NCBI GenBank assembly: GCA_963920575.1
Contig: OY986965.1
Location: 25,346,988-25,410,987, forward strand
DNA from: Narthecium ossifragum
Taxonomy: Eukaryota > Streptophyta > Magnoliopsida > Dioscoreales > Nartheciaceae
Length of the DNA stretch: 64,000 bases
Reading direction: 5' to 3'
The notes under the pieces were generated by a model that had not been told where the DNA came from, searched no databases, and was given only the letters and a program-made list of their open reading frames with translations. Positions 176 through 40,344 of this stretch are shown here, piece by piece; the first letter of the stretch is position 1; every line of letters starts with the position of its first letter. Both the position numbers and the translations under genes were made by a program.

Positions 176-1426
176 TTACATGGATGGCTCTACAAGCCAT
201 TTAAATGTTAGACATAAAGAAGAATGCAATAGCAATGTCAAACATAGAAATAACATGTAAAAAGTACACACCTTCTTCCCTTTTGGTTTAGGGTTTGGAG
301 GTTGAATGCCATTACCTCTCACCCTATTTTTCATTGCAATAGGAATAATCCTTTCCGTTGCAATAGGAGTTGTTTTTTCTGTTGCAACATCAGCAATTCT
401 TTCCATTGCAAATAGATCAAAATGTGGACTCCCATGTTATCGCTCTTGTAACCAGTAACTTGCATTGTCGTTACCACTAAGCTAACTCCACTATTTTGGC
501 TAACTCGGGAATCATCGCAATCTTTTGTGTGATACCGACAACCCTTTATGATATAGCCTGAATGTTTAATCACATCAAAGCGGGGTCCTTTAGCTATCCA
601 TTGTAGCGTATTAGAGACATCATGACCTACAATTAATTCTTCTGCAACCTATGTATAATATTGAATAGTTAGTCCTATTTTTATTGATAGAAAAGCTGCA
701 AGATATAGAATTTATTCAACACCTTTCCACATAACCAATATATAAATGATTTATTATGTTCAATTTGTAGCCACTTCTGACTTTTTGATTGACGAGGATT
801 TGGTACCTTCAACCAATCCGTATGCTTCCTATAAAAAGATAAATGCGAACATTATTCATCACTTATTGGAATGAAACAAAATTGCCATCTTCTGCTAAAG
901 ATGAAATAAATGTTCTCACTTGATGTAAGGTTGGACATCACTTGTGTTTTGTAACACATAACGATGTGCTTGCTCCCATTCTTCACGGTCAATAGCAATA
1001 ACATCACCATTTGATAAAGGCCTTTCGATTTCCGTATCATCAAAATTCATGTACATGGAAATGGGAAGCCCAATAGGATCAATTCCTGATAAGTACTCTG
1101 TGCAGAACTCAACAACTTCTTCTACAATATACTTTTGGGCAATGCAACCCTCTGGAAATCTACGATTATGAACATACCCCTTTAAGATCCCCATATACCT
1201 CCCAAATTGGTACATATATCGAAATAAAATAGGTTCGCAAAGTCATACTTCTCTAACAAGATGCACTGACAAATGAACCATTATATCAAAGAATGACGGT
1301 GGAAAGTACTTTTCAAGCAAACATAACGTGACCACAAGTTCTGATTGAATTTTGTCTAATTTTGGCACGTCCACCACTTTGCTACAAAGAGCATTGAAAA
1401 AGAAACATAATCTTGTAATGGCATAT
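176..1426 (-). pseudogene. TNP2-like CACTA transposase, C-terminal (DUF4218/DUF4216-like) segment
   Basis: After the solo LTR the reading resumes with AITRLCFFFNALCSK and LLEKYFPPSFFDIMVHL (about 1420-1260), then a YMGILKGYVHNRRFPEG block (about 1190-1100). These are typical of DUF4218. Further left, at about 640-430, is HSGYIIKGCRYHTKD, which matches the DUF4216 region. The open frame at 176-406 then shows an odd run of near-repeated peptides of the form (I/V)ATE(R/K) followed by PI. The frame changes between blocks, so introns or frameshifts are present. It is the downstream part of the disrupted transposase. Confidence 0.8.
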
Positions 1427-3053
1427 TGATGTCGCTCAAATATGTCATGCACAGCGGTCGCGGTGCAGTACAACATAAGAGAGGTCGAACCCACAGAGAG
1501 ACAAGCAGAAAACATACAAAACACAAATAACTATGAATTGAAGACAAACGAGAACTTAAGAATTAACTAAATTAGATCAAAGGATTTAATTATAATGTAA
1601 GATTAACTAAAGATATCAGGATTTTGATAAGGCTAGGCATCGGGAATCACTTCACTCGGACTTAGGTTCTTCTTCTATCAACGGTTCATTCAATACTCAG
1701 TTAAGGGATTCACATCCCAATCACCTTAACCGGAAGATATGGAATTATGAATCTAAAAAAAAATATAAATGTCTATTCCTACGATTGATTCTTCTTTATT
1801 ATAGTTCTAACTTCATCCAACCCAAACCTAAGAATATATGATACCGGCTGTCACTACAGGCAACGTATAGCAAAAGTTCATCGGGACAAAGCCCTAACTC
1901 TATCTAACCATATCTCTAAGAATACACAATACCAACTCTCATAATCGGCAATGCATAGTAAAGATTTCACGAGATAAAGTAAGTAAACAATAGATAAAAC
2001 TATGGGATTATAAGATCATGAAAGAAGCATGACTGGATTGATAATATTAATCATCCACATAGAAATCTATAATCTGAAAACAATCTTTGAAGATTCAATA
2101 CATAGAAAAGAGTTTAACAATAAAGATTAAAACTATGAACCATTGTTGGAGAAGAAACCCTAGTCCTCGCTAGATCATCCGTCCGCCATGCCCGCGGATT
2201 ACTCAGCCATGGATGGAGATGTCTTCATCTTCTTCCTTTAGAAAACGTCCAGGAAAGAGCCCCCAACAACGTCCAAAAACTCCCCTTATATATAGACATG
2301 AAACCCTAGCTTTTATTTCAGCCTTTGGATTAAATCTGATGGCTCATATTCAGATCCGCCCGACAAAGAATCGATCCTCTATAGGTCAAGGATCGATCTT
2401 CCTCTTCTCTATTTCTCCGTAACCTGGGTCACCCGAGTAGGATCGATCCTTCCATAGGTGTAAAATAGATCCTTTGATATCAACATCTTCAATTTCTGGC
2501 TACGCCCCAGGAAGATCGATCCTTTGAAAGAGGCATGATCGATCCTTCTCAGTAGGATGGATAGTAGGATGGATCCTTCTATAGGTGAAATATCGATCCT
2601 TCTCCTCAATATTCTCGAGTGAAAGGAGGATCGATCCTTCTGTGATCATCCAAAAAGTGTGTGTTCTGTCAGGTCTGTCTACATAAAAGGATCGATCCTT
2701 GTAGGGAACATGATCAATCCGTCTTTCCTGGGTATTTACTGTTTTGCCATCCAGACTGTGCCATTAGTACTAAAATTGTCGTAACTTCCTCTAGGAAACT
2801 CGGAATCACGACCCGTAAAATTCTCCAGAAACTAGACTTCAAGAGCTTTCCAATCATATATGACATTTCATCTGGTTTATTCCGAGAAGGTACAGTTTTG
2901 GCGTTAAAGACCCATCTTTGCTTCAATTTCCTGCATAATACAAATAACTTTGTGAAGCAACATATACGGACGAAATCATCTATATTAATCATGAAAATTA
3001 AGCAAATAAGCTGCTCTTAGTCATGTTCAGAGTGCAATTTCATCCACTCATTA
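1427..3053 (-). mobile_element. Solo LTR (LTR1) inserted in the CACTA transposase
   Basis: A 1627-bp insertion flanked by the 5-bp duplication CATAT (1422-1426 and 3054-3058). Removing it plus one CATAT restores the KEVRY/AITRL reading of the transposase, which fixes the borders. On the minus strand it starts TAATGAGTGG and ends GACATCA, so the 3' CA is canonical but the 5' dinucleotide is TA, not TG. Its 3' part holds a GGGTTCGACCTC signature and then GCGACC, similar to LTR ends of large plant Ty3/Gypsy elements (an inference). A TATA-like box reading leftward lies at about 2283-2296. No internal coding sequence remains, so recombination between two LTRs is likely. Confidence 0.8.
2368..2720. 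repeat. GGATCGATCC palindrome cluster in LTR1
   Basis: Perfect GATCGATC cores start at about 2391, 2441, 2514, 2537, 2629 and 2690. Degenerate copies lie near 2370, 2591 and 2711. The local consensus is AGGATCGATCCTTC. The DNA between copies differs, so this is not a simple tandem repeat. The cluster lies upstream, on the minus strand, of the TATA-like box at 2283-2296, which is where U3 enhancers sit. Confidence 0.8.
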
Positions 3054-4425
3054 CATATCTCACTTCTTTATGCAACACAGATCGAATCATCAGAGGTAGT
3101 AATTGTTGCATCAACACATGACAATCATGTGACTTCAGACCATGAAGTTTCAAATCATCCATTGAGACACGACTTCTAAAGTTTGAAGAGTACCCTTCTA
3201 GGACCTTCAAATCTGATAATGTTGTGCAAACTCTTTCTTTCTTCGCCTTAGACAATGTATAACATGTTGGAGGAAAGTATATTCGTTTCTCTCCAACCTT
3301 TGGTGCCAACTCCTTTCGCAAACCCATCTCCACAATATTTAGACAATAGTTAATGTCATCCTTTATTTTCCCAGGAATATTAAGCAGCGTACCGAGGATG
3401 TTATCACATATATTTTTCTCAATGTGCATGATATCCAAGTTGTGTCTCACATGCAAGAATTTCAAATATTCAAGATCAAAGAATATCGACTTCTTCCTCC
3501 AACACTTCGTACCAGGATCTGATGTTTCTTGTTTATTTTTCTTTCCCCAAACAGTTTTAAGCTCTTCTACTTTAGCCAATTCTTGCTCTCCATCCAGTGG
3601 TGTTGGAGCCGTTCCAAACTCTTGCTCGCCATTAAAAGCCTTTTTTTTGCTTTTGATAGGGATGGTGGTATGGAAGAAATTTTCTATGGCCCATATAAAC
3701 ATTATTGTTGCCATACTTCAATCTATGAGAGCATGTTCCTTCACTACAAATTGGACATGTATAATAGCCCCTCACCTTGCAACCACTTAAATTTCCATAG
3801 GCAAGAAAATCATTAATTGTTCATAATAGTACGGCCTTCAACTTGAAATATTGTTGTTGGTAAGCATCATAAGCATCAACACCTACCTCCCATAACATTT
3901 TCAGATCATCAATCAAACGAGCAAGATAAACATCTATGTCATTACCAGGTTGTTGTGGACCATATATCAACAATGTTAACATCATAAATTTCCTCTTAAA
4001 GCACAACCATAGTGGTAGATTGTAAGCAACCATAATAACTGGCCAACAACTATGCCAGCTGCTAAGGCAGCTATAGGGGTTTATACCATCTGCAAAAATA
4101 GCAACCCGAAGATTTCTGGGTTCTGCAGCAAACTCTGGCCATTTGTGATCAACTAACTTCCATGATAGGGAGTCTGATGGGTGACGTAATTGGCCATCAG
4201 AATTGCTTTAATCAGCATACCATGTCAAGTCCTTTGCAGTTTATGCGGATTGAAACATTCTTAAAAATATTGGGATGGGTGGAAAATACAACAAAACTTT
4301 TGTTGGCACACCATTTCTAACTTTTTTAGAATTTTCCTTCAACTTCCATCTTGACATTTGACATGTAGGACATGAAGTCGCATCTTTGAACTCTTTTCTA
4401 TAGAGGATACAGTCAAAAGGACATA
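3054..4425 (-). pseudogene. TNP2-like CACTA transposase, middle segment
   Basis: Reading left from 4425, the segment continues the TNP2 protein: a CPTCQMSRW zinc-like motif, a LLYFPPIPIFLRMF block, a region around 4070-3820 with GPQQPGNDIDVYLARLIDDL, then HNLDIMHIEKNICDNILGTL and a DCHVLMQQLLP block near 3120. These are landmarks of the transposase and the start of DUF4218. Several in-frame stops are present, for example between the blocks near 4240 and 3820, so it is a pseudogene. It stops at KEVRY (about 3059), where a solo LTR interrupts it. The next residues (AITRLC) resume at about 1425. Confidence 0.85.
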
Positions 4426-21562: not shown

Positions 21563-21694
21563 TTATTTAATTTTATAAGTACTGAACTGAACGTGTGGCA
21601 AACATATATTCAATCTTAGAAGTGGTATGTGACAAGTTCGAATATTCGATTTCATTTATAATATTATATTAGGGGTGGTTTTATATGCACCATC

Positions 21695-21880
21695 ACAATT
21701 TATAAGTGCACCCGTTTTACTAGGTGCACCACACTCAACTTTCTGAATACAACATATTACTAGATGCACCACGTACCAATTTTCATATATCTCATATTAC
21801 CCTTCACTCTCTCACTAATCCAATACCCTTCACCCTCTCACTAATCCAAACATGGTTTTACTAAGTGCACCACCCACTTT
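21695..21880 (+). repeat. Subterminal repeats of the PMD-MULE, left side
   Basis: TTTTACTARGTGCACCAC-like motifs recur near 21714, 21757 and 21854. CCCTTCACYCTCTCACTAAT occurs twice in tandem (about 21800 and 21827). They lie between the left terminus and the PMD promoter region. Confidence 0.65.
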
Positions 21881-22236
21881 AACTCCATCCTCTACGTTCT
21901 ACCCCACCGTTCAACCCTACCACCTTACTCTAACCCATGCTTCAAACGAGAAAGCTTCCTCCCGGTGAAACCCGCCGTCGCCTGAAGAAACCGCCGTTGC
22001 CGCGACTTTCGCCGAGCCGCGACCTCCACGTCTTCCCCAACGCCGTCGACCTCCGCCGAGCACGATTTCTCCGCCTCTTCCCCGTCAAAGAAAAAGAATG
22101 GAGGATATCCCACATTACAGTTAGTCCCCCCTATCATCGTAACTTAGCATTAAGATCTTGCCGACGATGTGAGGATAGACTGGCGCTAGTTCAGTTCGGT
22201 CCATATGCCTCCGTTCTTCCCCCCGTTTTCTTCATT

Positions 22237-22448
22237 ATCGGTCATGTAAATCCGATCATTCTCATTGTATTCGGTTTCCCGAAACCGAAAGTTTGTAATT
22301 TTTTCGTCTGTATATAGCCAAACTATATATTCGGAAATTCTTGACCGATTACCATCTGTATGTTCGGTTATGGAAAGCCGATTTTACATCGCTTTTTCGG
22401 TTTCATATATCTGAATATGTAGTTGAATTTCGGTTCTTTGTAACCGAA
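22237..22448. repeat. Left array of 33-bp units centred on 20-bp palindromes
   Basis: Units begin at 22237, 22270, 22303, 22330, 22363, 22396 and 22429, so steps are 33 bp except one of 27. Each has the form NTCGG-N10-CCGAN. The unit at 22270-22289 is a near-perfect inverted repeat (nine paired positions); the one at 22303 is degenerate. The spacers between palindromes are AT-rich and unlike each other. The array lies about 60 bp upstream of the PMD start codon. Confidence 0.88.
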
Positions 22449-22509
22449 CTTGTCCCAGTCACAGTTTATGGCTTAATTACGTGAATGATTTTGGTTTTAT
22501 GACAGATAC

Positions 22510-23085
22510 ATGGCAGAGAGCTCGACTCATGTTCCCCACACCGTGCGCCAACGACCCACCGCGTCGGCGAGGCAAAGGAGGGTGCGGGAACACGAGGTGA
22601 CGGAGGTTCCAGCAGATCATGTTGACCCATTGTCGGAGGCAGGATTAGGTGACGAGGCACGACCAGATGGCGATGACTTCGATACCAGTGGGCCTATTCC
22701 TGGAGGGCCTGAAAATGAATCACTTCTAACAGAGTTTAGGACTCACGTAGCATACCGGATATGACGTGGAGTGGTATAGTACTCAATAATAAATGTAATT
22801 TTTACTTAAGTATATGTTATTCACTATTGTTCTAATAGCTTTCATGTTTACTCATTGATGTAGGATCACGGGCCATTGAAATATTTGGCCCATGGGACTA
22901 TGGTAAAAGATTGGGGGAGCGTTGGGACGGTCGCATTTAGAGAGGTTGTGTGTGTGTCAGGACTGGGGAGCTTGCTAGATTGTACGTACAGTATAATCGG
23001 TAAGGTGTTAGTGTCGGCACTCGTTGAGAGGTGGCAACCGGAGACCAACACATTTCATTTGCCATGCGGTGAAGCAAGGATCTCC
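22510..23085 (+). pseudogene. Plant mobile domain (PMD) protein, truncated
   Basis: Exon 1 (22510-22773) starts MAESSTHVPHTVRQRP, is hydrophilic and acidic, and ends in ESLLTEFRTHVAYRI. A GT-AG intron (22774-22863) leads to exon 2 with DHGPLKYLAHGTMVKDWGS, LVSALVERWQPETNTFHLPC and GEA. The LVSALVERW.PET..FHLP.GE signature is diagnostic of the aminotransferase-like PMD family. A TGA at 22762-22764 replaces the Trp expected after VAYRI. After GEA the sequence switches to the antisense of the transposase, so the rest of the PMD domain is lost. Transposon PMD proteins have no settled function; host relatives are nuclear and affect transposon silencing and genome stability. Confidence 0.85.
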
Positions 23086-24640
23086 GTGTGTTGGAGCTCG
23101 AGCAGTGCATGGATCGTGGCCCAGGAGGTGTCAAAACTGCAGTTCGATGCCCCCAAATGCCTCTTCAATTTTGCATGTGCACTCTCAACCCGATTTGTAG
23201 TAACATTATCGAAGTGCATATATTTATCTGTCCAAGCACTCACAAATAATTCCTTGTATTTAAGTAGTCAGGACTCCTTGACATAATCAACCGCACTTGG
23301 GTAGCCGCAGAAAGACTTCTCCATTGACTCCATATGTTGAAAAAATTCGTTCTCAGACTCAGAACTAACAATCATCTCCCAGCTCACCAAAAAAGATTTC
23401 CACTTCTCGTTTGTCCCGAACATCTTCTTACAGTTTGTTGTTATATTCCTGTTGATATGCCACCTACATAGCATGTTCTTCGTGGTAGGAAACACAGACT
23501 GCACAGCCTTCATCAAACCCAAGTCCCTATCGGTCAAGACAACTCGGGGCAGCATGCAACCCTCTAACAATGACTTCAACTTCTCCATGGCCCACTGGTA
23601 GGTTCCCTCCCTCTCGGACTCAAGATACGCAAGCGCGCCTGCAAATGTCATGCCTGTAGAAAAAATAGTTAACCATTAAATCAATCCTGCTCGATCAAAT
23701 TATTACAAAATCATATGATAGTTACCTGTGGACGTCACTCCAACCATCTCGAGCAATGGAAGACAATACTTGTTAGTTTTGCATGAACAATCCATAATCA
23801 GCACCTCTGGAAAGGCACGCAATAGCTCTACCGACGACGGGTGTGCCCAGAATATGCTTCGGACAGACGATGTGTCATCACTGCTCGTGTGCCACTCAGT
23901 ATAACCGGCATCATTTAGATGGCCCAAGAGCAGCTGCATCTCTGACCTACCGACTTTCTCGATTACCCTATGCTTCTGTCTTGCATTATAAATATGTCTC
24001 ATAGTCGAGACATTCTGCTCATTTCTCTGCTTCAGGGTATTCAAGATCATCCTCGATTTGACTAGACTCTTGGACATGTCAACTAAAATATGTTGTTCCT
24101 CTTCTGATAATCTCCATGCATATGAATGACCCTCAAGATGAAGGGCAGATGGGTGGTTATGCACACCACATTCCACCCTGATCATCCACTCATCATCAGA
24201 TGCTAGCTTCACTCCCCGGAGTTTGAAGGGACAGCCACATTTCTTAGTGCCACAGCCTTTCTTCTTCTTGGTCAGAGCCTTGGTCTTATTATCAAATTTT
24301 CTCCATTGGGTCGAGTCCCTATACATGGCACTTCTCTCACATGCTAATGTGAGCCTTGGCTTTCTACCAGATTCACCTGCCTCTGAGTTTTTGATCACTA
24401 TGACTAACCCATGCTGCCTATCCACTTATTGAGTCCACTGAATTAGGGTCTCTAGATTATGGAATATCTGTACGCATGTGTCAGAAGACAGTCAGTTGTC
24501 TACAGAAAAAAATTCCCTCAAAGTCAAATATATGAAGAAGAAAAACACGATCATATGCATACCATGTTAGTTGTGAACTGCGACGTGTAATCCATAACAA
24601 TGGCATCTCCAACACCACTGTCAGCAGTGGAAGCATAATC
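23083..24640 (-). pseudogene. Mutator-like transposase (MULE/FAR1-type), truncated and with stops
   Basis: Three exons read leftward. A short exon with VGDAIVMDYTSQFTTNM ends near 24561. Exon 24467-23726 holds VIVIKNSEAGESGRKPRL, CGCPFKLRG, ECGVHNHPSALHL and the start of the DDE domain (VLIMDCSCKTNKYCLPLLEM). Exon 23653 leftward holds TFAGALAYLESE, VVLTDRDLGLMKAVQSVFP, LCRWHINRNI and NRVESAHAKLKRHLG. The FAR1-like DNA-binding and MULE catalytic domains are thus present, with Asp residues in MDCS and TDRD. Inactivating stops: TAA at 24426-24428 and TGA at 23268-23270 (Trp expected). The C-terminus is cut at about 23083 by the junction with the PMD gene. Confidence 0.9.
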
Positions 24641-24679
24641 ATGTCATCATAACGCAATCAATATCACAATTATGCTGAT

Positions 24680-24957
24680 TTCGGTCTTTAAAAACCGATA
24701 AATTCCGCATAGTTCGGTTTTATCAAACCGAAAGTAATACAAAATTTCGGCTATATGAAACCGAATATAAGAAAAAATTTCGGTTTTAAGTAACCGAAAT
24801 ACAATGTTCGGCTTTATTTAACCAAGCTTCGTGTAACATATCGGTTTCGAAAAGCCGATAAATATAAAGTTGCCGGTTTTTCGGGACCGATAAGTACCAA
24901 CTTGTTCGGCTACATAAAGCCGATACCTAAAACAAGGATCGGTCTGGTTTGACCGAT
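24680..24957. repeat. Right array of 33-bp units centred on 20-bp palindromes
   Basis: Units begin at 24680, 24713, 24746, 24779, 24807, 24840, 24872, 24905 and 24938, so steps are 33 bp except 28 and 32. All follow NTCGG-N10-CCGAN. The units at 24713, 24779 and 24938 have stems of seven or eight paired bases. Some stem positions change together: A/T instead of T/A at the outer pair, C/G instead of T/A at position 6 (24905), C/G at position 7 (24938). The array lies upstream of the transposase gene. Confidence 0.88.
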
Positions 24958-25522
24958 CAAGACGCGATCCTTCCGGTAAAAAAAAAGGGCAAAAAACACA
25001 TAGAAGAGAGAAACATGATACCTTTAGATGGCTCGATGTTTCGCTCGTGTGTTCTGGGGCGTGTTCTTGGGATGATTGGTCTTCTGATTCCGAATCCATC
25101 TTCAATTCAAACCCCGTCACCTCGAGTGTTGCAAAGAAGACTGAACTATATGTATACACACATGTTTGTAGCTATGGAATACGTCCTCTTGTTGCATTCG
25201 GAGTGCTGCATATGCTTCGGTTCGAGGCAGAAGACGGTTTGGTGAGGACCGCCGTAGGAGACATTGAGTGAAGTTTGAGGTTGGAGATAGGATATAGAGG
25301 ACGATGGCAATGCAGGGTGGTGTGATGCACATAGTAAAATTAATAGTGTTAATAAGTTTAGTTAATTAGCTTGAATAGGCTAGTAGGTTTAGTTAAACGA
25401 GGGTGTTAATCGAGGGTATTTTGATCAACTCACGCTAGGGGTATATTGGGTAATAAAATTAAATGTTTTATGTGATGCATTTATAAGAAGTGGTGGTGCA
25501 TATAAAACTACTCTTATATTAG

Positions 25523-27884: not shown

Positions 27885-28308
27885 TGTTAGGATTCAAGCC
27901 TCATCACAGCAGCCAAGGCCGGTCATCATCCACACTTACCAACGGAGGAGCAAATCACACAGCACAGCTACAGCTGCCAGTGACCAGCCGATGGAGGAGC
28001 AAACCAGGACAGCTAGCAGCAATCTTGAGGGGGATTCTAGCAGAGATCTTGAGGAGAATAATCAGCCAAAATAAGAAGATTTTTATTCTTGTATTAGGAA
28101 TGAAATAAAAGCAACTGTGCTTCCTAAATTAGTTATGGAATGGTCTTTATTAGACAGAGAATGTAATGGGTTAGGAGGATGAAAAAATAATATTACATCT
28201 CTCCTATCTTGCGTATTCCTTCTTCTTCTTCCTCTTGCTTTCTCCTTCTTCCCAGTGCTTCTCCCTTAGCATCTTGGTAGGACTTGTACCAGCAGCAAGG
28301 TTCTATCA
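27885..28308 (+). repeat. 5' LTR of the Gypsy element
   Basis: A 424-bp copy of the repeat at 32854-33277. A long open frame runs through its first part in the same frame as the pol C-terminus in the 3' LTR. No convincing TATA box was identified. Confidence 0.95.
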
Positions 28309-28310
28309 AT

Positions 28311-28320
28311 TGGTATCAGA
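28311..28320 (+). promoter_or_regulatory. Primer-binding site for initiator methionine tRNA
   Basis: TGGTATCAGA lies two bases after the 5' LTR end, the usual site complementary to the 3' end of plant initiator tRNA-Met used to prime reverse transcription. Confidence 0.9.
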
Positions 28321-28339
28321 CTTCGATCCTCTTCCTTGC

Positions 28340-31300
28340 ATGCCTAAGGACTTGCGTTCCATGGACGACGCGGCTAAGCTCCGGCAACTAGAGGTTGATA
28401 TCCATGGGCTCCAGCAAGCTGTCCGTCGCCACACGGACTCCTACGAGGAACTCTCTGCCCAACTCCAGCCCTTGGGGGAGCTTAAGGGCCAAGTCGCGGC
28501 CCTCACCGATGCTATCCTTGAACTCCGACACAACCGGCGTCCGACGTCTCCGAGCAGTTCGGGCTCTCGTCCGCCCATTGATCCAGGAGGAGTGCCAAGT
28601 TCCGGCTCTCGGCCGCCAATTGATCCCGGAGGAGTGCAAGCCCGTTTTACTCGCGTCGATTTTCCACGCACATCAGGGGAGGATCCGACGGGATGGGTTT
28701 ATGCGGCGGAGCAGTTCTTCGAATTCCAAGGCACGGTAGAGACGGACAAGGTGTTGCTGGCCTCTTTCCATCTGCAGGGTGATGCTCTCCATTGGCTCCG
28801 ATGGTTCAAAGGATTTCACCCGCATCCTTCTTGGCCGGAGTTCACGACGGCTCTTTGCGCTCGCTTCGGCCCTCGGGACGAGGACGATATCCATGAGACC
28901 CTCTCTAAATTACGGCAAACTGGCTTGGTGCAGGACTTTCAAGCCCAGTTTGAGCGTCTATCTATGCGGGTACGGGATTGGTCGGAACCCCAACTCCGCG
29001 GCTGTTTCATCGGGGTTCTGCGAGAGGAGATACGGCTGGATGTCAAATTGCTTGCCCCACGGAACCTTCCGAATGCCATCAGCCTTGCTCTCCTCGTGGA
29101 GGAACGGCATCACAAGACGCGGCGCACCTTCGGCGGCGCAGGACTCCTTCCTACACCACCTCGGAAACCTCCCTTCGTGTTGCCAGCCTCCGGACAACCA
29201 CCGCCGTCGCGCACGCCGGGTGGCCCGACGACCCTGCCGGGTAATGTCAATGTCAAACGCCTCAGTTGGGAGCAAATGCGGGAGCAGCGTGAACAGGGGC
29301 TTTGCTATAACTGTGACGAGAAGTTCGTCAAGGGTCACCGATGCAAGCGATTCCAGATTTTCTTGTTGGACGCCGATGTCGACGAAGACGAAGACGAGTC
29401 CGCGGACTCCCTGGTTCTAGTTAGCATCCAGGCCGCTACTCCTGCCGCAGAGGACCCTCCAGAGATCTCCATCCATGCCTTATCCGGCTGCTCAGCCCCA
29501 CAGACCATGCGCGTCGCTGGCCGGCTACAGGGTCACCAGATCTCCATCCTCATCGACAGCAGCAGCACACACAACTTCATCCGCGGCTCTCTCGCCTCCA
29601 AATTGCACTGCGCCCTAACTCCCGCTCCGCCGTTCCATGTCATGGTGGCCGACGGGCGGCGTCTCTCTTGCCAGGACATCTGCCCGAATGTTCCCATCCA
29701 CATCCATCGGTACCGGCTCTTGATCGACATGTATCCCTTGGAGATCAGTGGCTCCGATGTGGTCCTAGGTATTCAGTGGCTGCGCAGCCTTGGGCCGGTG
29801 ATCCACGATTGGGATCAGCTCACAATGCGGTTCACCAAGGAAGGAGTCGACTTCCTGCTGCGCGGTGATGCCGCTAGTTCCCTCCGGGCCGGCTCCGTGC
29901 ACAACCTCCAGAGCATCCTGCGCCCCGGCGACTGTGGGTTCTTCCTCCTCTCGTCGCCCTTCCCATGCCGCGAACTGGAACCGCTGGAGGGCCTGGGCGA
30001 TCTCACCACCCCCCTCGCCACCCTCTTGGAGGCCTATGCTGATGTGTTCACTGAGCCCAAGGGCCTCCCCCCAGCCCGTGCCCATGATCATCATATTAGC
30101 ATCACGCCAGGAGCTGGGCCCGCAAATGTTTGTCCCTACCGCTATCCTCACGCCCAGAAATCCGAGCTTGAGCGGATTGTGAAGGAAATGTTGGACAGCG
30201 GGATCATACGACCAAGTACTAGTCCTTACTCTTCTCCGGTTCTTTTGGTAAAGAAAAAAGACGAAAGCTGAAGGTTCTGCGTCGACTATCGGGCCCTGAA
30301 TGACATCACCATCAAGGACCGCTACCCCATTCCGGTGATCGACGAGCTCCTTGATGAACTCCATGGCGCTGCATTCTTCACCAAGCTCGATCTCAAGTCG
30401 GGATACCACCAGATCCGGGTGGCCTCGGATGATGTCACCAAGACAGCATTCCGAACGCATGACGGCCACTACGAATTCCTGGTGATGCCTTTTGGCCTTA
30501 CGAATGCACCGGCAACCTTCCAGGCCCTGATGAACGACATCTTCAAGTCGGCTCTACGCAAGTTTGTGCTTGTGTTTTTTGACGATATTTTGGTGTATAG
30601 CAGGGTCAGCGAGGACCATCTCCGCCATCTCCATTGGGTCTTCCAAACCTTGCGTGACCATCAGCTCGTCGCCAATCCCAAGAAGTGTGAGTTCTCTAAG
30701 CATTAGGTGGAGTACCTGGGCCACATTATTTCCGCTCAGGGCGTCGCCGCTGACCCGGAGAAGGTGCGATCCATGCTGGAGTGGCCTCGCCCGCGCAATG
30801 TTCGGGCCTTGCGGGGATTCCTGGGCCTGACGGGATACTATCGTAAATTCGTCCGCCATTATGGACACCTGGCGGCACCACTGACCACCCTACTTCAGAA
30901 GCAAGGGTTCCATTGGACGCCAGCAGCAGAAACGGCTTTTATTGCCCTCAAGACAGCTATGACCACCACCCCTGTTTTAGCACTTCCTGATTTTGCTAAA
31001 ATGTTCGTCGTGGAGGCCGATGCATCCGGCAATGGCGTCGGGGCGGTGCTCATGCAAGATGGCTGGCCTATCGCCTTCTACAGCAAGGCCCTGTCCGAGC
31101 AAGCGAAGGCCAGGTCCACCTATGAGAAGGAGTTGATGGCGGTGGTCCACGCGGTTACCAAATGGCGATCTTACCTCGTCGGCCGGCGATTCCAGGTACG
31201 CACCGATCATCGAAGCTTAAAACATCTCCTTCAGCAGCATCTTACCACACCCGACCAGCAGAGGTGGGTTATGAAGCTTTTGGGCTTCGATTTCGACATC

Positions 31301-33043
31301 ATCTACCGGCCCGGCAAGGAGAACTCCACCGCCGATGCCCTGTCTCGCCAGTCGGAGGGGGACGCCTCCATCGCCGCCCTTACCTCCCCGCGTCCGGCTT
31401 GGTTGGCGGACTTACGCGCGGCCGCTCGGTCCAGCCCCACGCTCGACGACACTCGGAAGAGAGTCCGCGAGGGTGACCCCGCTTACACATCCTACTCCTT
31501 GCTCAACGGTGACCTTTGGCACAAAGGGCGATTGGTCCTTCCTCCGGCTTTCGACTCCAAAACAGAGCTGCTCCGTGAATACCATGACACACCGGTGGGT
31601 GGCCATTCCGGCATCCTGCGCACTTACAAACGCCTCGCGGGGGATTTTTTCTGGACCGGCATGCGCAAAGATATCAAGTCCTATGTGCAGCAGTGCGACA
31701 TCTGCCAGCGGAGCAAGTACGAGGCGATGAAGCCGGCGGGACTGCTTCAACCCCTGCCCATACCGGAGCAAATTTGGGAAGACATTGCGATGGATTTCAT
31801 CACAGGACTTCCGGTGTCCTCCGGTTACTCCGTCGTGCTCGTGGTCGTCGACAGGCTCACCAAGTATGGGCACTTCATGCCTCTGAAGCACCCTTATACG
31901 GCCAAGGTAGTGGCAGATGTCTTTCTGCGGGAGGTCGTCCGCCTACATGGGTTGCCACGCTCCATCGTCTCCGACAGGGACCCTGTTTTCCTCAGTCAAT
32001 TCTGGCAAGAATTCTTCAAGCTCCAAGGGTCCACATTGAAGACGAGCACCGCCCACCACCCACAAACGGACGGGCAATCCGAAGTCCTCAATCGCTGTTT
32101 GGAGACGTATCTCCGCTGTTTCGCCGGCCTGCGTCCTAAGTCATGGGTCCGTTGGCTGCCATGGGCGGAACTGTGGTACAACACAGCCTTTCAGTCCGCC
32201 ACACAAATGACGCCCTTCCAGGCTGTCTATGGCCGGAGCCCACCATCTATTCACCGTTATGAACCTTCTTCGGCGGCGGTGGCCTTGGTCGACCAGGAGC
32301 TTCGCTCTCGCGATGAAATCCTACGGCTACTACGGGACAATCTGGTGTTGGCACAAAATCGCATGAAGGTCCAGGTGGACAAGCATCGGCGCGAGATGGA
32401 TCTGGCTGTCGGCGACTGGGCGTACCTGAAACTTCAGCCCTATCGTCAGTCCTCCGTCCAAGCTCGTGCCAATAAGAAGCTCACCCCTCGTTTTTATGGT
32501 CCCTTTCTGATACTCGAACGCATCGGCTCGGTGGCATACCGCTTGGATTTACCTGCTCACTCTAAAATCCATCCGGTCGTGCATGTTTCCCAACTGAAGC
32601 GGCAACTCGGCAACCAAGGCCGTGCAATTCCAAAGTTACCCGACTACTCGGATGATGGAGTCATGGTCAGCGAACCCGCTCTCATTACTGATTTCCGTTG
32701 GGTCAAGCGTCATGGCCGCATCATTCAAGAGGCCTTAGTCCAATGGACGGGACTGCTACCTGAGGATGCCACTTGGGAGGTTTTGGATCAACTCAAACGA
32801 CAGTTTCCTCACTTGAACCTTGAGGACAAGGTTCGTCTTCAAGGGGTTGGGAATGTTAGGAATCAAGCCTCATCACAGCAGCCAAGGTCGGTCATCATCC
32901 ACACTTACCAACGGAGGAGCAAATCACACAGCACAGCTACAGCTGCCAGTGACCAGCCGATGGAGGAGCAAACCAGGACAGCTAGCAGCAATCTTGAGGG
33001 GGATTCTAGCAGAGATCTTGAGGAGAATAATCAGCCAGAATAA
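28340..33043 (+). pseudogene. Gag-pol polyprotein of the Gypsy element, two in-frame stops
   Basis: The frame starts MPKDLRSMDDAAKLRQLE after the primer site. In order: gag with a coiled-coil start and the zinc knuckle CYNCDEKFVKGHRC (about 29302); protease near 29550 with DSSST where DSGST is usual; RT from about 30200 with [10 protein letters not shown] (about 30570); RNase H with VEADASGNGVGAVL (about 31010); integrase HHCC zinc finger (about 31580-31710) and the DDE core (MDFITGLP, SDRDPVFLS, DGQSEVLNR); and a chromodomain-like tail with ALVQWTGLLPEDATWE (about 32735). TGA at 30269-30271 replaces Trp in the RT motif before RFCVDYR, and TAG at 30704-30706 follows FSKH. Otherwise the frame is open for about 1560 codons and runs 63 codons into the 3' LTR. 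Confidence 0.93.
32838..32853 (+). promoter_or_regulatory. Polypurine tract of the Gypsy element
   Basis: AAGGGGTTGGGAA lies directly before the 3' LTR start at 32854, the position for plus-strand priming. It is interrupted by two T residues and also encodes part of the pol tail. Confidence 0.55.
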
Positions 33044-37617: not shown

Positions 37618-40344
37618 ATGAGTCAAACAACAAGTGACACTGAAAATATGCTGCAAAAAGATCGAGGGAAGTCGCCATCACTAGAAGAAGGTATCTCAAG
37701 TGGATCTTTGGCAGCAGGAGTGCTTTTGAAGAAGGGACCCTGGACGTCCTCAGAAGACGCTTTACTGGTGGATTATGTCAAGAAACACGGCGAGGGCAAT
37801 TGGAATGCTGTCCAGAAGCATTCGGGATTGTTTCGGTGTGGCAAAAGCTGTCGGCTCCGATGGGCTAATCATCTGAGGCCGAATCTGAAGAAGGGTGCTT
37901 TTACTGCTGAAGAGGAGAGATTGATCGTCGAACTCCATGCGAAGATGGGAAACAAATGGGCTCGAATGGCTGCTCATGTAAGTGTAGTTTATTGTTGTTT
38001 TGTTCTTTACATATGTACATACAAACAGATTTTTAGGATAAATAGATGCATAATATGTGTATCCAAGTATATATATGTGAGTATATAACGCACCGTTACT
38101 AGCTTGTTTCTTTTTGTTTGAATGTATGAGATCTCGTTATAGCATGACAGCTCAAATGAGAAATTTTGCTCTATATAAAAAATTGTAGGAAATCAGATGA
38201 TGCTTTTTTATGCGAACTTAACAGTATATAGTTGTACTAGAAAACTTTATTCCTTCTTAGCTTCTCATGAATAACCATGTAAGGAGTTTCAAGTTCTTAT
38301 TAGTTAAGATGACAGTGTAGTAAGTAGGTAACTTGTACCCCCCCTACGACTACTTTTTCTCGTGATGCTAATTATGGTGGAACTTATGCATTTTGTTACA
38401 AAAGTCTAGTCATTTTCCGTCTCTTCCAGCACATGTAACTTGAAGCTTCACCGGTATATTCGCATATAAAAGTCAGGGAGCCTGAATTGCTTTGTTACCA
38501 TCCCTTTGTAACTTAAAGCAATCTCCTCAAGCTGCTTTAGGCAACATACATGTGCAGAATGATCTCTAAGAGTCAGTGAGTTTAAAGGGTCCTTATTCTA
38601 AGTGAGATCTTGCTTCTATTTCAAATGAAATCGTGAAAATTCCAAACTTTTCAAATCTGTAACTCACTTCCGTATCACTGTCCCTCTTGTTTCTGAATCT
38701 GATGCTCTTGCTGTGAGATCTTCCTCAAGCACCTTCTTCCTATCTTATATACATTCCCTGGACCTGTGGGAAGTTTTACTCTCAATCAACTACCCTGGAC
38801 CAAGAAAATACAATATCTCATGTTCCTAATTTTCTTTCAAGTTCTTTTAAGCACTCCTGCAGGTATAGAATGCGCAAATAAGCAAAACCACTTTCCTGAC
38901 CCGTTGTATGGTACTCTTCCAGTTACCAGGACGCACAGACAACGAGATAAAGAACTATTGGAATACGCGCATCAAGAGACTTCAAAGGGCCGGTTTACCA
39001 TTGTACCCTCCTGACTTGTGTGCTCAATATTCTAGTGAAAATCAACAAAACCAGAGTGCCAGTGATTTCAGTACTGATAGCAAACAATACAATGAGCTCT
39101 TGCATGGAAATAATCATGAAATTCATCTTCCTTTATATGATAACCTAAGAACCAATCAAGGGGTTTTATCTTATGCACCATCATTTCCTGATATTTCTTT
39201 GAGTAATGTCCTGAGTCAGGGGCATGGATCACCAAATTATGGTTTCATCAATTCAACAATCCATGGTAAACGGCTTCGTGAATCTGAAAACTTGTTTACT
39301 GGCTTTCAAGGTGGCATACCTACTGGGCTTCCCTCATTCGAGGTATTTCCATATGAGCCTCCTGATAAAATTCCTCGAGCCTTCGGTTATCCTTATGATC
39401 CCAAAAACATCAGAAAGAACCTTGCACCTATTGGAGGTGCAGTCCCTGGCAGCCATGCCCTTTTAAATGGCAACTTCTCTACTTCCATGCCCCTTTTTGG
39501 GTCTGTGAAGTTGGAGCTCCCTTCACTCCAATGTGCGGACACCGAATTTAGTAGCTTGCTTGCATGTCCTCCATCTCCTCTAGATGCAGGTGATGTATAC
39601 ATTCAGTCTCCATCAACTGTACCACTGCAATCGGAAGTTGTGTCCCCGAGGAGCAGTGGTCTGTTAGAAGCAATGGTTTATCAACCACGTATGCAGAGTA
39701 ATACACATAATCAGCGATCTGAACAGAGCTCTAAATCTCCTGTAGTCAAGCCCAGAGATTTGATGGAAAGTCCAACTCTCAACTTCTTTGAAACAGATTG
39801 GGAAAGTCACAGTGATCCAGTTTCACCACTGGGCCTCACTGCTGCTTCAGTTTTTAACCAGCATACTCCTATCAGTTCCTTGGATGAGTTTCCGCCTTCC
39901 AAATCCCCCCCTGGTAAGAACTATATGGCCTTAAATTTCAAGTGCTTTTATATGCAGATGTAAAATGTTTACATATTTATTGCTGCAGATTTGGAGGTAG
40001 AGCTGGAGATCTTTGATTATGATTCAATGGCAAATGTGAGAGAAAAGGATGTCTCATCTCAGCTGCTATCACCTCGGCGACATTTATGGCCTGACACTTT
40101 ACTGGAGTTAGGTTGGCTTGAGAACACCAAGCATGCAAGAGAGCACTCGATGTTGAATGATGCTTTATCAACACTTCTGCATGAAGACTTGTGCAGTGAA
40201 TGCAAGCAAGCACCATGTGGAATGTCATCTACATGCATCCAAGTACTCAGAAGTTCATGGAATAAAATGCCCCGAGTGTGCCAAATGTCTGAACAACCTA
40301 TTTTGGCACCTAATGATGAAGATTTTTCACCATTAGCTGATTAA
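37618..40344 (+). CDS. GAMYB: GAMYB-type R2R3-MYB transcription factor
   Basis: Three coding exons (37618-37977, 38923-39913, 39989-40344; GT-AG) give 568 residues. R2 begins at about residue 40 (KKGPWTSSEDALLVDYVKKH), and R3 runs to about 142 with the exon junction inside it (MAAH|LPGRTDNEIKNYWNTR). The LPLYPPDL motif after R3, the length close to known GAMYBs (about 550) and the miR159 site mark the GAMYB (MYB33/65/101) group. These nuclear activators act downstream of gibberellin signalling, in anthers and in seed aleurone. The leader is long, CT/GA-rich and probably has an intron ending just before the ATG (GATTCAGGTTATAGGAG). The ATG is in a purine context and opens the frame into R2. 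Confidence 0.93.
39512..39532 (+). promoter_or_regulatory. miR159 target site in GAMYB exon 2
   Basis: The 21-nt stretch with core GAGCTCCCTTCACTCC matches the conserved miR159/miR319-family complementary site of plant GAMYBs and encodes ELPSLQ in the expected position downstream of the MYB domain. miR159-guided cleavage keeps GAMYB low in vegetative tissue. Confidence 0.92.

Follow-up and report, generated by a model that had tools for sequence, protein, structure and literature searches.

Palindrome arrays and genes of the element

A 64,000-nucleotide stretch of Narthecium ossifragum DNA (contig OY986965.1), referred to below as the window and used for all coordinates, contains a Mutator-like element (MULE) in which two arrays of short palindromes accompany a PMD gene and a transposase gene. 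A preliminary description of the window had placed 16 units of the form TCGG-N10-CCGA in these arrays, and all of them were found there. The element, its arrays and its genes lie as follows.

21673..25513, Mutator-like element of 3841 bp, an internal deletion derivative, with a 9-bp target site duplication (TSD), inverted ends and relatives in its own genome
22169..22505, + strand, candidate PMD 5' intron (GT...AG), which would contain array 1
22237..22448, + strand, array 1, seven 20-bp gapped palindromes starting at 22237, 22270, 22303, 22330, 22363, 22396 and 22429 (steps of 33, 33, 27, 33, 33 and 33 bp)
22510..23073, + strand, PMD gene, 5' part only, exons at about 22510-22773 and from 22864; 3' part deleted
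23071..23073, internal-deletion junction, 3-bp overlap
23074..25099, - strand, MULE transposase gene, exons at about 25099-25022, 24617-24563, 24467-23726 and 23653-23074; 3' part deleted
24618..25021, - strand, transposase intron 1 (GT...AG), containing array 2
24680..24957, - strand, array 2, nine units starting at 24680, 24713, 24746, 24779, 24807, 24840, 24872, 24905 and 24938 (steps of 33, 33, 33, 28, 33, 32, 33 and 33 bp)

Twelve of the 16 units matched TCGG-N10-CCGA at all eight positions, three at seven and one (22303) at six. The 12 perfect matches were the only ones in the window, where 0.55 would be expected by chance; no 8/8 unit lay in the window outside the element. Sites with a neighbour at 32-34 bp numbered 11; when the element was shuffled 500 times with its dinucleotides kept, there was never more than one. 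The regular 33-bp spacing described earlier was exact for 11 of 14 steps in the window, but it was not strict in other genomic copies, where steps of 31-34 bp were found. As the preliminary description had also stated, the sequence between the palindromes was not conserved whereas the half-sites were: the 13-bp linkers were random-like (mean identity 0.285, null 0.291), and the half-sites, which extend to approximately W-TCGG-YT, were 92% identical among units. One step in each array was short by 5-6 bp, or half a helical turn (22303-22330 and 24779-24807), in both cases four units from the gene-proximal end. Aligned in the register that matches these short steps, array 1 may be homologous to array 2, although this is suggestive only.

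The PMD gene of the window matched PF10536 (E=1.8e-9, profile positions 11-44 of 347) and had one in-frame stop in the exon at about 22510-22773; the pieces of the full PMD gene in L012, a full-length copy of 9.4 kb with a 9-bp TSD, spanned profile positions 16-347. The transposase gene, whose exon borders are splice guesses, matched PF10551 above the curated cut-off (E=5.1e-15), had plant MULE relatives and contained two in-frame stops. BLAST against the 379-Mb genome showed that copies aligned with positions 1-1401 and 1399-3841 of the element and had kilobases in between. The window copy is therefore an internal deletion derivative. The transposase/PMD gene pair of the preliminary description was thus present, but both genes lack their 3' parts, having been cut off at 23071-23073. 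With a PF10551 domain, a PF10536 gene in the same element, 9-bp TSDs and terminal inverted repeats (TIRs), the element has the features of a PMD-MULE.

The two genes were convergent, as described before, but the arrays did not lie simply upstream of them. Array 2 was located in transposase intron 1, across which the reading frame of exons 1 and 2 fits inexactly in this decayed copy. Array 1 is probably inside a PMD 5' intron, the donor of which was picked after the fact. It stopped 57 bp short of the acceptor of this intron, and both arrays stopped about 60 bp short of a 3' splice site. An ATG was found 5 bp past the PMD acceptor in the window and in the full-length copy L010, and subfamily B had TTGCAG followed by ATG at the same place.

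Conservation of the arrays among genomic copies

The arrays belong to the family. Among the copies whose array regions were read, window included, the left array was present in 11/11 close copies, and the right array in 12/12 close copies and in 10/10 copies of subfamily B (78-81% identity). The absence from other copies that would have spoken against the preliminary description was not seen among them, although part of the right array is missing from L009. The right array comprised nine units in the window and ten in subfamily B. The left array comprised seven in the window and 14 (at least 6/8 matches) in L059, the only subfamily B left array read whole; of another B-like left end, that of L060, a portion was covered. 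Two adjacent 33-bp units of L059 were identical, so unit number has changed by tandem duplication, as in VANC-type arrays. L010 and L012, both full-length, had a third, weaker array of six units (steps of 33, 33, 28, 33 and 33 bp), placed between the PMD end and the last transposase-like exon. In it, CGG-N10-CCG was intact in 6/6 units of L012 and 4/6 of L010; this stretch was rearranged in L017 and missing in L009. All these arrays occupied non-coding DNA of their own element: the first transposase intron, the probable PMD 5' intron and, in the case of L010 and L012, the DNA between the 3' ends. A 28-bp step was retained in both subfamilies and also occurred once in the third array.

Array 2 was then aligned for 12 close copies (A) and 10 subfamily B copies. 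The A and B consensuses differed in 3/72 half-site columns, compared with 30/97 linker and 25/54 centre columns (p=3e-8). A unit-paired recount made without L009, which varies with the B unit that is counted as extra, gave 3 or 4/72 in half-sites and 27 or 25/54 in centres (p=1e-9 or 7e-8 for the contrast of these two). Within individual copies, changes were found in 41/853 half-site and 46/1157 linker positions in A, and in 15/720 and 13/970 in B. The share of C>T or G>A was 37/56 in half-sites and 24/89 in linkers and centres, as expected from methylated CG in silent copies. A McDonald-Kreitman-like (MK-like) test on distinct events, which assumes independent sites and uses consensuses, gave between:within ratios of 3:45 for half-sites and 55:55 for linkers and centres (p=2.8e-8); after removal of C>T and G>A these were 1:15 and 37:40 (p=0.0017). 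This contrast indicates that inserted copies decay freely, while lineages that continued to transpose have retained their half-sites. The N10 gap and the step were also retained while the linkers were randomised. The preliminary description had named neutral decay among copies as evidence against its reading, and the outcome was divided: half-sites changed at least as fast as linkers within inserted copies but were strongly conserved between subfamilies.

With high confidence, the array units are conserved, functional cis-elements. That they are neutral tandem repeats without function is extremely improbable. Unit gain by tandem duplication in subfamily B and the free decay of single copies would fit such repeats, but half-sites conserved between lineages beside random linkers, the MK-like test, and the recurrence of the same architecture in other PMD families all disfavour them.

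The preliminary description had also reported covariation of the palindrome stems, in favour of hairpins. In this reading the units would fold in RNA or single-stranded DNA and serve splicing control or act as a small RNA source. When right halves were exchanged among the units of the window, covariation was marginal (p=0.026-0.028 for the best position sets, 0.16 for all ten pairs). Over five measures, the observed value was reached by 16-21 of 500 shuffles in three, and by 91 and 188 of 500 in the other two. Between A and B, 9-10 stem pairs were broken, and one was altered on both sides and kept. Folding of both arrays did exceed that of dinucleotide shuffles (z -5.0 and -9.7), and array 2 also folded better than shuffles in which the core half-sites were preserved (z -3.6 and -4.1), an excess for which shared extended half-sites could account. 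However, array 1 showed no excess over core-keeping shuffles (z -1.2 and 0.0), hairpin energy was the same within noise after exchange of halves between units (p=0.35 and 0.10), and an Rfam search matched no family. Since covariation was lacking, the hairpin reading was rejected, and we consider it very improbable.

PMD clade, motif class and the putative binder

The genome contained at least 150 PMD matches, many of them a few kb from a transposase match. The PMD/transposase pairs compared were convergent, except for one family with both genes in the same direction. At 15 loci, which had PMD identities of 54-74%, the DNA upstream of PMD was read over 0.6-1.4 kb. Under a strict rule (a chain of at least three units at 32-36 bp, at least two of them strong), an array was found at 11/15 loci and in 0/84 overlapping control pieces of the window. 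L068 had four units, but its chain was interrupted by a gap.

Two motif classes were distinguished. Class one, TTCGGYTT with a 33-bp step, was found in the window family, subfamily B, fam73 and fam64. Class two, (A/G)TCGGTA with a 34-35-bp step, was found in fam62, fam61, the same-direction family and L075. Mean scores outside the core, relative to window-family units, were 3.8, 2.2, 3.7 and 4.2 for class one and -1.2, -3.4 and -1.6 for class two, with a looser unit cut-off for some families. The identity of the PMD exon-2 head was 60-85% within clade I, 81% between fam62 and fam61, and 48-60% across clades. The tail of PMD exon 1 of the same-direction family (about 30 residues) was 83-87% identical to fam62 and fam61 and 69-74% identical to clade I. 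Transposase identity to the window family gave another order of families: 77% for the same-direction family, 69% for fam64, 64% for fam73 and 64% for fam62. In both copies read of the same-direction family, clade II units stood beside PMD, and no unit with 7-8 matches was found in the 0.93-0.95 kb beside the transposase. Because this family combines a 77% identical transposase with the motif of the other clade, motif and step track the PMD and not the transposase, as judged from this single informative mismatch. The same-direction loci are G000:C2:2339770 and 2344799 (L076, L077) and C10:15892901 and 15897749 (L078, L079), and the pairing of their transposase with a clade II PMD looks like an exchange of PMD modules between MULEs.

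The preliminary description had proposed either the PMD protein or the transposase as the binder at dimer sites. The units are likely dimer sites for an element-encoded protein. PMD is favoured as the binder, since it is the PMD clade, and not the transposase, with which motif and spacing change. Precedents for sites bound by an element's own transposase are those of CACTA TnpA and of Ac transposase. In the present element, transposase sites read by a FAR1/AFT-type zinc finger, which would join the ends or regulate the transposase gene, are unlikely. The transposase has a weak match to a FAR1/AFT-type DNA-binding domain, the two arrays are almost equally far from the element ends (564 and 556 bp), and array 2 is within the transposase intron. 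However, the TIR-like repeats found closer to the ends make better candidates for such sites, a miniature inverted-repeat transposable element (MITE) and another derivative have TSDs without arrays, and motif class does not track transposase identity, the other family with the closest transposase having no array beside it. Slightly less likely still is a host transcription factor as the reader of the units, which the element would use as an enhancer. The location of the arrays in 5' introns would suit such a role, and several candidate host factors could read half-sites of this kind, but motif and step vary with the PMD clade in one host genome, which is unexpected for a shared factor, and the window has no 8/8 unit outside the element.

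DUF1985 is a domain of VANC, a protein that removes methylation and binds motif arrays in introns, intergenic DNA and terminal regions of the VANDAL element encoding it, according to the accessible parts of PMC5735166 and PMC10398659. The middle pieces of the PMD proteins of the family matched DUF1985 in 6/6 cases (E 3.5e-6 to 1.1e-4), below the Pfam gathering score. Our preferred reading, to which we give a probability of roughly 60% from comparison of sequences, is that the arrays are dimer binding sites for an element-encoded protein, most likely PMD, acting in the manner of VANC. One unit would be one dimer site, made of two inverted half-sites (W-TCGG-YT in clade I) exactly 10 bp apart around an unconserved centre. 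A repeat of about 33 bp corresponds to about three helical turns, which would align the dimers along almost one face of the double helix and might allow cooperative binding. The PMD protein would coat the non-coding DNA of the element and keep both genes transcribed. By analogy with VANC in VANDAL elements, it may thus be a self-specific anti-silencer or activator.

Several observations weigh against binding by PMD. The DUF1985 matches stay under the gathering score, and the metagenomic PMD protein P0207 reached only E=0.12. The half-site resembled neither the VANC21 motifs nor DOWN, the motif linked to MAIN/MAIL1 (p=0.42 for DOWN), and these host PMD proteins have roles in both silencing and activation, as far as the accessible text of PMC7156037 goes. 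Array 2 adjoins the transposase gene, which a transposase autoregulator would explain equally. No array was found in the stretch read at 3/15 PMD loci (L065, L073 and L074), although L065 groups with clade II. Only one family with a PMD/transposase mismatch was found, and two of its copies were read. The array-less loci had PMD identities of 54-55%, and L065 and L073 shared a different short repeat, GTCGGCAANCAACGACCGGC.

If PMD is the binder, the arrays would be a concrete, selected DNA target for it, with two clade-specific versions and a natural PMD/transposase mismatch. Escape from silencing through arrayed self-motifs would then be shared by a second large group of transposons in plants, where gene silencing could be approached through another sequence-specific handle. 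A broader proposal is tentative, and we hold it to be rather doubtful: the PMDs of plant MULEs may form another widespread class of self-specific anti-silencers, beside VANC. Each PMD clade would read a separate gapped-palindrome code, composed of the half-site flank and a step of 33 or 34-35 bp, via aligned dimers. PMD and DUF1985 would in that case derive from one ancestral DNA-targeting fold, and host MAIN/MAIL and VANC would be relatives of one transposon-borne motif reader.

Known systems, element ends and derivatives

Target arrays are described for VANC21 and VANC6 of Arabidopsis VANDAL MULEs in the accessible parts of PMC5735166 and PMC10398659. As far as these sources go, the likeness consists of an extra MULE gene encoding a DUF1985-like stretch (putative here, with matches below the gathering score), arrays of short motifs in introns, upstream regions and intergenic DNA of the element itself, gain of units by tandem duplication, and a motif that varies between related families. 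VANC motifs, in contrast, are given there as 8-9 bp, non-palindromic, in a single orientation and often homogenised. The units described here are inverted half-sites forming a 20-bp gapped palindrome, with a fixed step of 33 or 34-35 bp and randomised linkers; the accompanying gene encodes a PMD protein. The array/PMD system would be VANC-like in its working but, given its palindromic motif and a binding that is a prediction, was not classed as a VANC module.

Plant PMD-MULEs share with the window element a PMD beside the MULE transposase, 9-bp TSDs and TIRs; PMD is listed in several plant MULE groups, often antisense (PMC6446971), and an anti-silencing function of PMDs captured by MULEs has been speculated on (PMC5418596). 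The portions of these two papers that were accessible mention neither arrays nor any DNA site targeted by the PMD that an element encodes. The host proteins MAIN, MAIL1 and PP7L resemble the PMD of the element in that genetics connects these PMD proteins with gene activation through a promoter motif as well as with the motif itself, but the DOWN motif (CATGCAGTTT) is a single short promoter motif with no resemblance to the half-site, and direct binding to it is not shown in the accessible text (PMC7156037, PMC9899485). SIRCs, in the available part of PMC10342631, are likewise short repeats with unlike spacers that are common in mobile elements. They differ in their definition, which is 2-8 direct repeats picked out by a repeat finder, and that part mentions no linked protein or fixed phasing. 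A literature search, which did not extend to bioRxiv or most subscription papers and covered its sources in part, returned no palindromic arrays in PMD-MULEs and no DNA target of an element-encoded PMD. Modules of a PMD protein and a DNA motif that act against Polycomb silencing have reportedly been presented in a preprint, which may narrow the novelty. TnpA of CACTA elements and Ac transposase bind several short subterminal sites at both ends of their own elements. The arrays of the window element differ from these in lying about 560 bp inside, in being palindromic and phased, and in that array-less derivatives have moved. When the half-site was compared with the DOWN, VANC21, TnpA and Ac motifs, none of the likenesses was significant.

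A protein search with the PMD fragment gave a single match, P0207, and the AlphaFold model of P0207 (pLDDT, predicted local distance difference test, 35) was unusable. A search of solved structures found none, and among the viral and prokaryote contigs searched no relative was confirmed. Judged by eye, transposase relatives end in SWIM-type and OTU-like tails. An OTU-like C-terminus of cysteine-protease type was seen in L012:5933-6559 (-), P0110, P0113 and P0184 and is missing from the window copy; its otubain match was below the cut-off (E=0.0093). A bacterial promoter scan was discarded as not meaningful in plant DNA.

The ends of the element have the following features.

21664..21672, left TSD copy, 9 bp, TTATATTAG
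21673..21710, + strand, left TIR, GGGTGGTTTTATATGCACCA plus an inward extension
21715..21873, + strand, three TIR-like subterminal repeats (starts 21715, 21755 and 21856), candidate transposase sites separate from the arrays
25322-25339, - strand, fourth TIR-like subterminal repeat
25476..25513, - strand, right TIR
25514..25522, right TSD copy, 9 bp, TTATATTAG

The two TSD copies were identical, and the inverted arms 21670-21710 and 25476-25516 were 80% complementary. The pattern TTTTAYTANGTGCACCAC, with up to two mismatches, occurred four times in the element compared with none in the remaining 60 kb of the window. The MITE L008 (about 130 bp; L008:1495-1626) and the 1.2-kb derivative L013 had TSDs and no arrays. 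These two copies indicate that the arrays are not required in cis for movement.

The TIR core had 144 genomic occurrences, compared with 3 for a control. Nine TIR-core pairs among the first 100 matches listed were 95-119 bp apart, as in MITEs sharing these ends; L008 is the one of these that was read. One TIR-core locus outside the BLAST list, L026:952-1068 (G000:C2:28939091), had four units with steps of 35, 35 and 27. Elsewhere in the window, 28235-33043 and 37618-39963 contained long open reading frames resembling a Ty3/gypsy-type polyprotein, together with two open reading frames of an R2R3 MYB gene, as judged by eye.

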